A stretch of 64,000 bases of DNA from an uncultured Verrucomicrobia subdivision 3 bacterium (GTDB lineage: Bacteria; Verrucomicrobiota; Verrucomicrobiia; Limisphaerales; UBA11358), in assembly GCA_903865745.1 (NCBI GenBank), contig CAIPKV010000060.1:1-64000 (forward strand), in the 5' to 3' direction. Shown piece by piece: positions 37 through 47,573 of this stretch (position 1 is the stretch's first letter; every line of letters begins with the position of its first letter). The position numbers and the translations under genes were made by a program. The notes beneath the pieces are model-generated. The model saw nothing but the letters and a program-made list of their open reading frames with translations, did no database searches and was not told the DNA's origin.

Positions 37-1644
37 CTAATGAACGGGGTCCAAGCATCCTTCCAAGGCCAGCTCCATGCCTTGCGCATCCGCATTAATA
101 TTTTCGTCCGATCCGTTTTCAACAACGATGAGATTGTTCATCTGGTTGTAAAAGCCGGAAACCGAAGACTTCAAGAACTGCCCGATTCCCTGTTCGTAGA
201 CCAGCTCGTAGGACTGAATCTGTTCGGGCTGGATATTATGGTCTTGGTTGACTTCCAGCTCCAGAAAATCAGGGTCGCGAAACGCGGTCCCATAAAGGGC
301 CTTGAAGGTGGATTGCTGGAATGGGTTGTAAATCAAACCCACCCGAGGACTGAAAGTGGCATCAAAATCACCGTATTGATCATAGCGTACTCCGGCATTA
401 AGGCGTAGGTCGCTGCGCAACTCAAAATCGCCTTGCGCGTAGACCCCATGGCTTTGTTGGCTGGAATTTATATTGTTAACTGGCTTTGTCGACCCAGCAA
501 CAGTGACTTTGTCATATTGGCTGAAATCATCACGGTATTCTGCGCCCACGCTGATGGTATGTTTCTCCCAGAGTCGTTTACTCACTTGTAGCTCAGCGCC
601 CCACCATTCCCCACCCGTATTTTGCTGTTGAAATTGGGTTATTGTCGGGGTGCCAAGCGGATTGCCGGAATTGATTTGGTTTTGGTCGTAATAGAGGTGG
701 GAGGACAAATCCAAGTCGCCTGCCAACTCATGGTTAAATTTCAAGTCCAGATAACTACGCTCCTGTACAATCTGGGCTTTGGAATTATTGAAGGTCAATG
801 GTACCGGGGCGGTGGGATCAGTATGCTCGCGATTAATATAGGCGCCTTCTAGGATCAAATCCGCGTAGCTGATTGAGCCAAAAACACTCTCGTAGGAATC
901 GCCATTCATGTTTTGGGCTATACCGTTGTTTTGCGTCGGAGTGTTGAATTCCTTGTAATAGAGCTGATCTGGCCCATCGCTTTGGTAGTAAGTGCCAGAG
1001 AGGAGAAACGCGACCCCGTTGGTATAGGTCTTACCAAAAGAGAGTCGGGCTTTGTAAGTATCAAATGAGCCATATTCGCCGGAAGCTTCAACGCCGTCCA
1101 CCTTGCGGGTCACGACGTTGATGACACCGAAGAAAGCGTTGTTGCCGTAAAGCACCGAGCCGGGACCGCGAATGACCTCCACATGGTCAATCAAATCTAT
1201 GTCTAGAATGAAGTCAGTGCCAATGGCGGCGCCGTCATTGATGTTGTTGTTGACACGATGGCCATCCACGAGGAGCAGAATGCGGTTATTATAATCACCC
1301 AAATTAACCCCCCTTGGCCCCAGATATGCATAATTGCGGTCATACGAGACGTCAAATCCTTGTAGACTCGCCAAAATATCCGCCAACGTCCGGTAACCAT
1401 AACGTTTAATTTCTTCAGCCGTGACGATGGATATGGAGGAGGGCGCTTCCGTGGTTTTCTGCTCGAACCCCGAGGCGGCGACCACGGTATTAACTTGGAC
1501 TTCCCCAAGGTCTTCAAGACTCATCGATTTCAGCGCCGACAACTCCGTAGTATTGTTGTCTGCCTTAGCAATGGCGACGCACCAGCCCAGCACCAGGCTG
1601 ATAAGCCCAGTTTTAAGCGTTAGCTTCAGGTGCATGCGGTTCAC
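37..1644 (-). CDS. TonB-dependent receptor, plug domain plus part of the beta-barrel; C-terminus appears truncated
   Basis: Signal peptide followed by a plug domain (SIVTAEEIKRYGYRTLADILASLQGFDV, VEVIRGPGSVLYGNNAFFGVINVVTR) and barrel strands. Stops at 535 aa in ALEGCLDPVH without a normal terminal strand. Confidence 0.85.
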   Translation of the reverse strand: MNRMHLKLTLKTGLISLVLGWCVAIAKADNNTTELSALKSMSLEDLGEVQVNTVVAASGFEQKTTEAPSSISIVTAEEIKRYGYRTLADILASLQGFDVSYDRNYAYLGPRGVNLGDYNNRILLLVDGHRVNNNINDGAAIGTDFILDIDLIDHVEVIRGPGSVLYGNNAFFGVINVVTRKVDGVEASGEYGSFDTYKARLSFGKTYTNGVAFLLSGTYYQSDGPDQLYYKEFNTPTQNNGIAQNMNGDSYESVFGSISYADLILEGAYINREHTDPTAPVPLTFNNSKAQIVQERSYLDLKFNHELAGDLDLSSHLYYDQNQINSGNPLGTPTITQFQQQNTGGEWWGAELQVSKRLWEKHTISVGAEYRDDFSQYDKVTVAGSTKPVNNINSSQQSHGVYAQGDFELRSDLRLNAGVRYDQYGDFDATFSPRVGLIYNPFQQSTFKALYGTAFRDPDFLELEVNQDHNIQPEQIQSYELVYEQGIGQFLKSSVSGFYNQMNNLIVVENGSDENINADAQGMELALEGCLDPVH

Positions 1645-2060: not shown

Positions 2061-2354
2061 ACAAAATATCGGGTATAAAAGTGAAATAATCGGATAGTTT
2101 TACCCAGCCTACGTGATTTATTGGCTGCAGTACCTAATTTCTGGGTATCAAGAGATCTTTTCATGGCTGCAGAACCCGTCCTTTTGCTCGCGGATAATTA
2201 TTTGTTCGATGCAGGATACGTTAAGTTGCCGGTGAAACGGGATTTCCTCGCTGCGAGACACGGTATATTGGCCGCATAAACCGTTCTATTTGGAGCCAAA
2301 TGAGCTCTGCAGTGTGCAAAAAGCGTTTTGCACTATGCAAAACGTGATTTGCAA
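2061..2354. repeat. Degenerate 21-bp tandem array E (strong units 2229-2354, recognisable to about 2103, possible to 2061)
   Basis: 21-nt units in register: 2292 ggagccaaatgagctctgcag, 2313 tgtgcaaaaagcgttttgcac, 2334 tatgcaaaacgtgatttgcaa. Twelve of 21 positions are identical in all three; upstream units keep GC at positions 4-5 and T15/T17. Confidence 0.65.
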
Positions 2355-2826
2355 CGCCTCTCCCGACACAAAAAAGCTAAAGTTGATGGTTTTCTTTGAA
2401 AATCGGCGAAACTAGCACCCGCTGGCGCTTTTTGACCACCTCCCATCTTCTATCTATCGTTCGGTGCCTGATTCCTAATGCCAGCCTTTTTTAAAAATTT
2501 GAACCAGTGTCCATATTCTAGCCGGTATGTGTCCAAAAATTTGCCACATCTTGTTTTCGTTAAACCAAGTCATTAAACAGACAATGCTGAGGCTTTTGCA
2601 AGTTTTGTAACTATCGACGAAATCAGACGTTCTATTTTTGGCCTCCTTAATTACACAGCATCATGTAAACCAATCACTTGCCAGACTAAAAATTCAAAAT
2701 AAGCCGGCATATATTTCAGGAATGTCGTTTGGGATGACTGGGCGGGTCAGTCTTAAAAAAATTGCAGGTTCATTTAATAATGGCGTGCAAATTGCTTTTT
2801 TAATGTTAGGATTGGTATTGAATTTT

Positions 2827-3747
2827 ATGACTACAACAAAATTTTTTAGCTCAGCCATACGCACCTGTCGCTACGGCGTCATGCTAGGCAGCTTGATGTT
2901 TGCCGCCAACGCGTTCGCCGGGACTGCGCCGCTGATTACCTCCCAGCCATTAAGCCAAACGGTTTCAGCGGGTAGTAACGCCACTTTCTCAGTGGCTGCC
3001 TCGACTGGGACAACTTTGAGCTATCAGTGGTATTTTAATAACGTCTTAATCAGCGGGGCGACGGGCAGCTCATATACCTTAACCGCAAAATTTTCCAATG
3101 CCGGACTTTATTTTGTTTCTGTAAAGAATGCTTTTGGAACGGTTAATAGCGCGACTGCAACGCTAAATGTAAAACCGCCGACCGGAGCTACCTTGGCGGC
3201 TCCTTGGGTTTCGGCTGACATTGGAAACGTCGGGTTGATTGGCAGCGCTTACAGTATTTCCAATAATTACACGGTGAACGGATCGGGTGCCAGTTTGGTA
3301 GGCGCGGCGGCTGACCAGTTTCACTATATTTATCAGACTATGCCAGGAAACGGATCCATTGCGGCTCGGGTCACCAACCAAAGCGGAACCAATGTCAACG
3401 GGTACGCTGGGGTTATGATTCGTGAAACTACAGCGACCGGCTCGCGTTATGTATTTGCCGCCCGTGAGGGAAATGGCCCCGTAGTCGTCCGTAGCCGGCC
3501 AAGTACGGGTGGAGCCACCACCAGCACCAACGTCCCCAACGCGACTTTGGCCAGCTGCTGGGTGCAACTAGTACGGACTGGAACCAACATAGCTGCTTTG
3601 ACCTCTATCAATGGTTCTGTGTGGACTCCAATACAGACAAACGCTGTTGCGATGGCGACTAATGTCATTTTTGGTTTGTTTGCAACTTCCGGCAATACAA
3701 ATGTTCTTGATAGCGATGTTTTTACCAATGTCACCGTGGTTCCCTGA
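2827..3747 (+). CDS. Secreted immunoglobulin-like domain protein
   Basis: Signal peptide, then PLITSQPLSQTVSAGSNATFSVAASTGTTLSYQWYFNNVLISGATGSSYTL, a bacterial Ig-like domain. ATG at 2827 preferred over the upstream ORF start. Confidence 0.75.
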   Translation: MTTTKFFSSAIRTCRYGVMLGSLMFAANAFAGTAPLITSQPLSQTVSAGSNATFSVAASTGTTLSYQWYFNNVLISGATGSSYTLTAKFSNAGLYFVSVKNAFGTVNSATATLNVKPPTGATLAAPWVSADIGNVGLIGSAYSISNNYTVNGSGASLVGAAADQFHYIYQTMPGNGSIAARVTNQSGTNVNGYAGVMIRETTATGSRYVFAAREGNGPVVVRSRPSTGGATTSTNVPNATLASCWVQLVRTGTNIAALTSINGSVWTPIQTNAVAMATNVIFGLFATSGNTNVLDSDVFTNVTVVP

Positions 3748-14303: not shown

Positions 14304-14555
14304 GGTTGAACGGGAAGCGTCACTTTTCCAGCCGGAACCGCCTTGCTTCCGATTGGAATGGTCATGCTTCCGACAGGAATTGTGACGCTTCCGGTCGGAA
14401 TCATCACCATTCCTGTTGGAATAGCCTCCCTTCCGACCGGAATTGCCATGATTCCGACTGGAATTGCCTCCATTCCGGTCGGAATGGCCTCGCTTCCACC
14501 CGGAAACATGACAATTCCCGCTGGAATGATCACCGTTCCAGCGGGAATAAGTCCT
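14304..14555. repeat. Degenerate 21-bp tandem array A, 12 units, core TTCC-N4-GGAA
   Basis: Units from 14346: cttccgattggaatggtcatg, cttccgacaggaattgtgacg, cttccggtcggaatcatcacc, attcctgttggaatagcctcc, cttccgaccggaattgccatg, attccgactggaattgcctcc, and so on. Strict 21-nt spacing. Confidence 0.95.
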
Positions 14556-14683
14556 AATCTTCTTAAATCCAGCGACTTGCTATTTTGCTGTCATTTCCGC
14601 TGCCGTGACCGACGGGGTAGGTGTGGGTGGATTATCTATTGGCCGTAGTCGTTGGCAACGACGATGTGAAAACCTAACTAAAT

Positions 14684-25024: not shown

Positions 25025-26368
25025 ATGTTTGACTCGTTAGGCAGCAAGCTTCAAAACGCCTTCAAGAACCTGCGCGGCCTCGGTAAAATTTCCGAGAGCA
25101 ACGTCGGTGACGCTCTGCGCGAAGTAAGAATGGCGCTCCTTGAAGCCGATGTGAATTTCAAGGTCGCCCGCGATTTTATTGAGCGGGTCAAAACTAAATC
25201 GCTCGGTGCGGAAGTTATTTCCAGCATCCAGCCGGGACAGCAGATCATCAAATTTGTCAGCGACGAGCTGACAGCCTTGCTCGGCTCACAAAACGCGGCG
25301 TTGAACCTTTCTGGAAATCCCACCTGCCTGATGATGGTTGGGCTGCATGGCGCAGGCAAAACGACTTCGGCTGGCAAGCTTGCTAAACTTCTAAAAAAAC
25401 AAGGCCGCGCGCCGTTGCTCGTGGCGGCGGACGTTTATCGGCCAGCGGCGATGGATCAACTCGAAACGCTCGGTAAACAAGTCGAAGTTCCGGTGTTTAT
25501 TAAGCGCGGCGAGACGGACGTTTTGAAAATAGCGCGCGAGGCGCTGGCTTTTGCCGGTGTCAATAATTGCAATGTCGTCATCTTTGATACTGCTGGCCGG
25601 TTGCAGATAGATGAGCCGCTCGTACAGGAACTCGTCCGCTTGCGCGACTTGGTGAAGCCGCAGGAAATTTTGCTCGTGCTCGATGCCGCGACCGGTCAGG
25701 AAGCCGTGAATGTCGCCACGCATTTCGATCAGGCGCTGAACATTACCGGCTCAATTCTCACCAAGCTCGACGGGGATGCGCGCGGCGGTGCGGCTTTGAG
25801 TCTGAAAAGTGTCACCGGCAAGCCAATCAAGTTTGCCGGTGTCGGCGAAAAGCTGGACGAGTTTGAACCGTTTCATCCCGAACGCATGGCGTCGCGGATT
25901 CTGGGCATGGGCGACGTAGTGAGTCTCGTTGAACGCGCCGCTGAGGCTGTCACCGAGGAAGATGCGAAGCGCATGGAGGAAAAGATGCGCAAGGGCGAAT
26001 TTTCGTTGGAGGATTTTCTCGAGCAATTGCGCGCGATGAAGAAGTTTGGCTCGCTCGAAAGTATTATGAAGATGTTGCCGGGCGGCGGCGACGCGCTGAA
26101 ACAAATTGACCTTGGCAAGCAGGAGAAAGAATTCAAGCGGATGGAAGGCATGGTTTGCGCAATGACGGTGAAGGAACGCCGTAATCCAATGCTCCTCAAC
26201 GCGAGCCGCCGTCGCCGCATCGCCGCCGGCAGTGGCGTGACGGTGACCGAGTTGAACACCATGTTGAACAAGTTTTTCCAGATGCAGACGATGATGAAAA
26301 AGATGGGCAAGATGTCCAAGATGATGGGCAAGATGGGTGGCGCGATGCCGGGGATGTTCCGAAAATAA
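25025..26368 (+). CDS. ffh: Signal recognition particle protein Ffh
   Basis: GLHGAGKTTSAGKLAKLL, DTAGRLQIDEPLVQEL, LTKLDGDARGGAALSLKSVTGKPIKFAGVGEKLDEFEPFHPERMASRILGMGDV; Met-rich M domain. Confidence 0.97.
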   Translation: MFDSLGSKLQNAFKNLRGLGKISESNVGDALREVRMALLEADVNFKVARDFIERVKTKSLGAEVISSIQPGQQIIKFVSDELTALLGSQNAALNLSGNPTCLMMVGLHGAGKTTSAGKLAKLLKKQGRAPLLVAADVYRPAAMDQLETLGKQVEVPVFIKRGETDVLKIAREALAFAGVNNCNVVIFDTAGRLQIDEPLVQELVRLRDLVKPQEILLVLDAATGQEAVNVATHFDQALNITGSILTKLDGDARGGAALSLKSVTGKPIKFAGVGEKLDEFEPFHPERMASRILGMGDVVSLVERAAEAVTEEDAKRMEEKMRKGEFSLEDFLEQLRAMKKFGSLESIMKMLPGGGDALKQIDLGKQEKEFKRMEGMVCAMTVKERRNPMLLNASRRRRIAAGSGVTVTELNTMLNKFFQMQTMMKKMGKMSKMMGKMGGAMPGMFRK

Positions 26369-26392
26369 TTTGTCTTTACGGCTGTGCCAACC

Positions 26393-30312: not shown

Positions 30313-30608
30313 GGGGGCAGTAGCTTTTAATATCGGGATGGCTGGAGAAAAAATGGGGGCAGCCCTAAAATAAATGGGGGCAACGTTCGGAAAAATGGGG
30401 GCAAAGGCAAAAAAATTGGGGGCAGTGTCCGGAAAATCGGGGGCGATGATGGAAAAAATGGGGGCAGTCATCCAGAAAAGGGGGGGGCAACGCCAAAAAT
30501 TATGGGGGCAACCTATGAAAATAAGGGGGCGGTGGTTGGCAAATGGGGGGCAGTTGTCCAAAATAAGGGGGCGGCCAGAGAAAATATGGGGAGCAAAAGA
30601 TTTTTTAT
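30313..30608. repeat. Degenerate 21-bp tandem array B, about 14 units, consensus GGGGGCA-N9-AAAAT
   Basis: Units at 30355, 30376, 30397, 30418, 30439, 30460, 30483, 30504, 30525, 30546 and 30567, all starting GGGGGC. Spacing is 21 except one 23-bp unit in a G run. Confidence 0.95.
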
Positions 30609-34219: not shown

Positions 34220-34492
34220 GATGTCCTCGTTCGCTGGATAGCAATCGTCGTCCGCTCGCTAGCGAACGTCAAAATCTGGCAGGATTTTCCCGTTCGCTTG
34301 TTGGAAATCTCAAATACCTGGCTGGAAATCTTCGTTTGCTAGACAGATATCCCCGAAATCCAGTCAGCTAACGCAAAAATCCGACAAGATATCGTCAATT
34401 TCCAACCGGATTTTTACGTTCGCTGATAAGAAATCGTCGTCCGCCGATAGGATTTTGAGGAAATCCGACCGAAAATCTTCGTTATTTGCCAC
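34220..34492. repeat. Degenerate 21-bp tandem array C, 13 units
   Basis: Consecutive 21-mers: gatgtcctcgttcgctggata, gcaatcgtcgtccgctcgcta, gcgaacgtcaaaatctggcag, gattttcccgttcgcttgttg, gaaatctcaaatacctggctg, gaaatcttcgtttgctagaca, gatatccccgaaatccagtca, and so on. Confidence 0.88.
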
Positions 34493-47300: not shown

Positions 47301-47573
47301 GCCGCTGGTGTTGAAAAGTCAACGGCGGAAGGTTCACCGCCAATGGCTAGGGGCACGCCCCCAGCGGCAAGGGGCGTAAACCCTACGGCTACTTTCACGC
47401 CCCCAACCGTCGGTGGCGCATTTATAACCACTTCTTTCCCATACCCAATGGTTGGGTTTGCGTCCGTAACGGCTGCTTTCTCGCCCCTAACCATTACTTT
47501 ACCACCCCCAACGATTGGGTTTGCAACGCCAATGATTACTTTTTTACCCACAACCATCGGGATTGCGCCCTTA
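47301..47573. repeat. Degenerate 21-bp tandem array D, about 13 units
   Basis: Consecutive 21-mers from 47385: acggctactttcacgccccca, accgtcggtggcgcatttata, accacttctttcccataccca, atggttgggtttgcgtccgta, acggctgctttctcgccccta, accattactttaccaccccca, acgattgggtttgcaacgcca, atgattacttttttacccaca, accatcgggattgcgccctta. Confidence 0.92.

Follow-up and report, generated by a model that had tools for sequence, protein, structure and literature searches.

Array E, a run of 21-bp units in a 64,000-nucleotide stretch of DNA (the window) from a Verrucomicrobia subdivision 3 / Limisphaerales MAG of 3.63 Mb, may well be one copy of a dispersed modular element, the core of which would act as a helically phased multi-site platform for one or more dimeric DNA-binding proteins; this reading is held with middling confidence. 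Arrays of this class would, in a wider and more tentative proposal, be defined by their geometry (a 21-bp pitch and a dyad), each copy having its own, fast-replaced motif and part of them being tied to a family of ~130-aa proteins encoded immediately upstream.

Array E and its surroundings

The features discussed are collected in Table 1. The first-pass annotation had placed array E in a gap of about 1 kb between a TonB receptor and an Ig-like protein, and the two genes indeed diverge across 993 bp; the Ig-like / DUF1349 ORF begins at 2638, its true start being possibly at ~2827. The palindrome described for the unit at 2313-2333 is exact (GTGCAAAA-AGCG-TTTTGCAC, an 8-bp dyad with a 4-bp centre), and this is the best unit of an array that carries the family-1 dyad GCwAAACrCGTTTwGC.

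Table 1. Coordinates of array E, its neighbours and the sister arrays within the window
Feature	Position	Strand	Evidence and remarks
TonB-dependent receptor	37..1644	(-)	Pfam TonB_dep_Rec_b-barrel 1.6e-28, Plug 5.2e-20; neighbour of array E
Two mutually in-phase 21-mers of uncertain membership	2061..2102		Common AAA..ATCGG.TA
Array E proper	2103..2354	(-)	12 units x 21 bp; lag-21, independent profile, dyad p 0.018, no indel
Conserved flank F1 of E, ~85 bp, adjoining the array	2355..2438	(-)	Flank then array on minus strand; alignment and nhmmer
Secreted Ig-like / DUF1349 protein	2638..3747	(+)	Pfam Ig_3, below cut-off; neighbour of array E
Sister array, family 2, aTTCCnnnnGGAAt, 11 units	14321..14551		Lag-21, dyad tests
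Small array-associated gene, 3'-end remnant (PPTPTPSVTAAEMTAK stop)	14580..14630	(-)	Tail and flank intact at C62 of the same genome
Sister array AAAAATGGGGGCA, 21-bp period, no dyad	30341..30590		TRF, lag-21, dyad test
Sister array, 21-bp period	34221..34490		Dyad p<0.002
Sister array, 21-bp period	47319..47570		Dyad p 0.002

Identity at a lag of 21 reaches 0.458 over 2061-2354, compared with 0.252+-0.028 in dinucleotide shuffles (0 of 500), and again none of 500 shuffles equalled this score when all lags from 5 to 60 were considered. The signal extends upstream of 2292 (0.414 over 2061-2291, z 5.5, 0 of 500 shuffles; 0.423 over 2103-2291, z 5.0) and is flat on either side of the array (z -0.2 over 1645-2060; z -0.3 over 2355-2640). 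The upstream extension claimed earlier, which hinged on this score exceeding that of shuffled controls, thus holds. Tandem Repeats Finder reports only 2308-2353 (2.2 copies) at E, in agreement with the earlier remark that standard repeat finders miss such arrays.

The limits of the array were drawn with an independent profile, which was built, with E excluded, on six further arrays of the genome and ranked over the 64-kb window. Ten of the 12 in-phase 21-mers of 2103-2354 rank among the best 1% of all positions, and the profile sums are +78 and +69 at two adjacent registers and -63 or lower at every other, so that the array proper comprises these 12 units. The two preceding 21-mers do share the motif first noted in them, but they rank at 7% and 25%, which leaves their membership unproven.

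As had been supposed, array E and the window's other 21-bp arrays belong to one class. Its portrayal as an older, decayed member finds no support: its divergence from consensus is 0.38, inside the 0.19-0.49 range of 33 arrays, and its phase is exact and free of indels; moreover, its columns are unevenly conserved (p 0.02), as they are in most arrays, so that particular arm bases are held. Further, the description of E as an array is correct but too narrow, since E also has a conserved flank and, on other contigs, sister arrays of its sequence family. The sister array at 14321-14551 has relatives at C62 of the same genome and in genomes G009, G010, G041 and G063. A further lag-21 match, at 26201-26388, is coding and outside the class, being the Met/Lys-rich C-terminal end of a 447-aa ORF at 25025-26368.

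Family 1 and the conserved flank

The dyad of E recurs at C49:7860-7965 with identical spacing, and the core AAACnCGTTT is common to arrays on contigs C15, C52, C13, C79 and C85, where the surrounding arms differ but are mutually complementary (GCA/TGC, GCT/AGC, GGT/ACC and GGC/GCC in the family). Flank F1 is present on one side of the array at seven loci of the genome, that is, E and six arrays elsewhere. With E excluded from the model, nhmmer matched 2438-2369 (E-value 4.7e-4 in 313 kb) and 2438-2371 (0.0016 in 678 kb, the best match outside the training copies). The latter value is modest by itself; the position of the match, exactly beside array E, adds weight to the identity of the flank. 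The F1 consensus folds weakly. In the right flanks of L222 and L232, a run of ~10-bp repeats (AATCnGCGG) forms a second short-period repeat.

Number and distribution of the arrays

Arrays were surveyed in stretches of the source genome. In 313 kb, partly chosen for motif matches, 18-24 arrays of period 21 were found, depending on the threshold, as against 0-2 for periods 20 and 22. Density was estimated from 389 kb of largely unselected sequence, not chosen by motif and made up of the window, the starts of contigs and two stretches taken arbitrarily. These hold 22 non-coding arrays, or ~1 per 18 kb; extrapolation to the 3.6-Mb genome therefore gives an estimated ~200 non-coding arrays of period 21, among which E is not unusual. 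The stretches from relatives contain ~1 array per 125 kb, and in other phyla period 21 is without excess over periods 18 and 24, as expected of coding sequence. Five contigs of the genome, C2, C16, C18, C22 and C24 (L221, L232, L234, L238 and L240), terminate within a 21-bp array or very close to one, which suggests that the arrays break the assembly.

Properties shared by the units

The consensus unit is dyad-symmetric in 27 of 33 arrays, with a combined p of 4e-36 for a set that includes several relatives and is not fully independent; the six arrays where no significant dyad was found count against the platform reading. Relative to consensus, 3041 substitutions stand against 2 indels, a figure to be read as "very few", since detection favours intact phase (~100 bp) and two arrays may hide one extra shift each. 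Thus, the spacing of the units is held.

A coding heptapeptide repeat was ruled out by stops in every frame of E (at least one in each across 2103-2354) and by a stop frequency across the 33 arrays near the column-shuffled expectation (625 vs 692). Mismatches between arms are balanced between G-T and A-C (746 vs 806), and co-change within units (ratio 1.39) offers no pairing compensation beyond unlinked controls (1.24-1.33), the complementary fraction being equal; a reading of the units as RNA hairpins was rejected on these two grounds. Taken together, the chance-level stops, the balanced mismatches and the absence of compensation point to DNA recognised by something symmetric, rather than to RNA or protein.

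Some other regularities were recorded. In 33-37 arrays from this genome and its relatives, C<->G changes relative to consensus are about as frequent as transitions, as if the unit centres flipped orientation, and the substitution spectrum has no A bias, so that a DGR-like adenine mutagenesis was discarded. Several arrays alternate two unit types, which gives a 42-bp super-period. A very regular array at L183:2800-3219 (G014 C257) has four palindromic arm types (CTGCAAA, AGCAAA, AGATAA and GAGAAA) and provides the best hint of arm compensation inside one array.

Turnover of motifs and empty sites

The absence of arrays was compared at two syntenic loci. In congeners the arrays are missing: genomes G014 and G005 have the same genes around the 14321-14551 gap without the array, and G020 and G055 keep the TonB and Ig-like genes of the E locus, also without it. 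Within the source genome, the copies on C3, C16 and C4 have the left-flank sequence and parts of the right flank in common (identity up to 94%), and their units read different dyads in the same phase: GTACTTAACCAAGTAC, GTACAGGACCCTGTAC or ATCCTTGACCAAGGAT. Similarly, the copies on C49 and C79 have both flanks in common and different arms. These two sets of copies imply a faster replacement of motifs than of flanks, with pitch and symmetry preserved. In the array on C70, the central units are identical and the edge units have diverged.

A linked gene family

The flank of the array at 14321 holds the last codons of a small gene (Table 1), which is intact beside the sister array at C62. Searches revealed homologs, ~125-131 aa long and with a Pro-rich tail, in 10 of 49 genomes belonging to the genus and in 12 of 245 sampled across the order. 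Genomes other than the source have 23 loci with a good match (three weak matches being left out), and at 21 of these a 21-bp array lies within ~700 bp downstream of the gene; one fragment and one full-length gene are the exceptions. Under the same distance rule, and with a somewhat stricter array threshold, ordinary genes have an array downstream in 8 of 634 cases. No trace of the small gene exists at E, so that an array can do without it as a neighbour.

The ~130-aa protein has no convincing match in Pfam, NCBIfam, PHROGs or PDB. A viral origin was considered and dropped, since two scans of viral contigs contained no relative of the gene. The family comprises several subfamilies (L165, L166, L189-L202 and L203-L219), with a 21-bp array directly downstream nearly always. 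In G065 and G026 a collagen-like (GPPGPPG) gene comes after the small gene and its array (L209:2126-2773, L216:604-1125 and L211:2745-3257). At L194:1181-1630 and L199:1005-1393, GCACCGGTGC arrays followed by T-runs lie downstream of the small gene and have the look of tandem terminators. By eye, a hairpin resembling a terminator closes several of the linked genes ahead of the array.

Proposed mechanism and alternative explanations

The element proposed for E joins the conserved flank F1 to a body of 12 dyad-symmetric sites at exact 21-bp spacing. Since 21 bp corresponds to two turns of B-DNA, every site faces the same side of the helix, and the body would most likely serve as a multi-site platform for a dimeric DNA-binding protein, whose molecules would line up next to one another along it. 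The phasing, the symmetry, the conserved bases, the dispersal with flanks and the rapid change of motif are observed, and the dimeric reader, its assembly and the mode of copying are inferred. The element would spread into intergenic space by copying itself, flanks included, and its units would be quickly re-homogenised inside each copy, as a result of which copies with the same flanks would come to carry different, still symmetric motifs. Chromosome organisation, selfish maintenance and silencing are candidate roles. Further points against the platform are that a search by sequence found no candidate for the cognate binding protein, that the dozens of motifs in one genome would require either many proteins or a reader of DNA shape, that terminal inverted repeats were not found, and that the flank match at E is modest by itself.

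The best surviving alternative, although unlikely, is a selfish minisatellite, in which slippage or unequal exchange favours palindromic units that then decay neutrally, no reader being involved. Copy-specific homogenised units, the identical centre and diverged edges of the C70 array, the absence of arrays from syntenic loci and the excess of complement-type C<->G changes would all be accommodated by such a process. It fits poorly, however, with the 2 indels among thousands of substitutions, a period that never drifts, the uneven conservation of columns and the association with a single gene family in different taxonomic families of the order.

A non-autonomous transposable element, with the units as subterminal repeats bound by a transposase, is quite improbable. 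The motif varies among copies that have their flanks in common, a variation that a single transposase would not tolerate, no common mobilising gene was seen, and the genome has only two Y1 transposases; nor do terminal inverted repeats rise above the background of mismatched pairs in 17 arrays. These objections stand against the conserved flanks, dispersed copies and empty syntenic sites that such an element would explain. A match at the two ends of E (AAAAATCGCCAG), noticed by eye, was tried as a terminal inverted repeat and set aside as neither outstanding nor general.

Very unlikely, too, is the possibility that the arrays are transcribed into RNA hairpins or guide RNAs, whether of the TIGR type or another. 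Hairpin-like units, the 42-bp super-period of some arrays and array-specific motifs, which come naturally to nucleic-acid readers, would be consistent with it, and TIGR loci also vary their repeats between loci (PMC12045711). Against these stand the balanced mismatches and missing compensation described above, an Rfam search (window, L006, L009 and L010) that matched tRNAs only, the lack of a Nop-domain match, and the terminator-like hairpins that close several linked genes before the array.

Finally, local regulation of adjacent genes, by operators, a promoter insulator or tandem terminators, would suit intergenic dyad sites, but hardly any credence is given to it: gaps with arrays show no orientation bias (convergent, divergent and co-directional 7, 9 and 13, vs 13, 23 and 51 of other gaps; p 0.37), and syntenic gaps between the same gene pairs are without the array.

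Significance

Bacterial repeat families are recognised by sequence, while here unit length and symmetry are constant and the sequence turns over; for this reason similarity searches and repeat finders largely miss the ~200 loci estimated. The arrays give the impression of a mobile DNA platform of an undescribed type, to which proteins would bind. If a protein does read the sites, they would constitute a chromosome-scale binding system not previously known, to which the linked gene family, of unknown function, offers a direct experimental handle.

Comparison with known systems

The open-licence literature, to which the search was confined, contains nothing similar on Verrucomicrobia repeats or helically phased 21-bp intergenic arrays, and the class is considered categorically new with moderate certainty. 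The terminal inverted repeats of MITEs and IS-derived elements do not stand above background in the 17 arrays compared, and the compensatory changes and curated Rfam family that mark structured RNAs were likewise not found.

Iteron and centromere arrays (plasmid origins, ParR/parC) are tandem sites of ~20-22 bp in helical phase, bound by dimeric readers; each replicon has just one or two of them, which use a single motif and have a known cognate protein. The present arrays are equally tandem direct sites in helical phase, whereas they number ~200 on a chromosome, with many motifs and no constancy of sequence. REP/BIME elements with their RAYT (Y1) transposases are also dispersed intergenic palindromes, but they lack a fixed 21-bp head-to-tail run and a motif particular to each copy; moreover, an array lies ~1 kb from one of the two Y1 genes (C16) and the other (C57) has no array within 1.5 kb, unlike a RAYT flanked by REPs.

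TIGR-Tas systems combine units of 36 nt and spacers with a Tas protein that has a Nop domain, and their arrays are processed into ~36-nt guide RNAs. They resemble the present arrays in forming tandem runs beside a gene, with repeats that vary between loci and some variable palindromes (PMC12045711). They differ in period, which is 21 or 42 here, and the Nop domain PF01798 has no match in the source genome, in a search whose controls matched only in archaea and which a very divergent Tas could escape.

The BOX elements of Streptococcus (boxA-boxB(n)-boxC) lie scattered between genes as modules whose ends are conserved and whose tandem core varies in copy number (PMC3049150), and in this they are similar to the element proposed for E. 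However, BOX modules are defined by a sequence that all copies share, whereas here unit length and symmetry are common and, judged by architecture, flanks are common within families and the core motif changes between copies with the same ends. In the wider proposal, the arrays could correspond, in bacteria, to satellite or centromere-like DNA whose readers evolve together with it.
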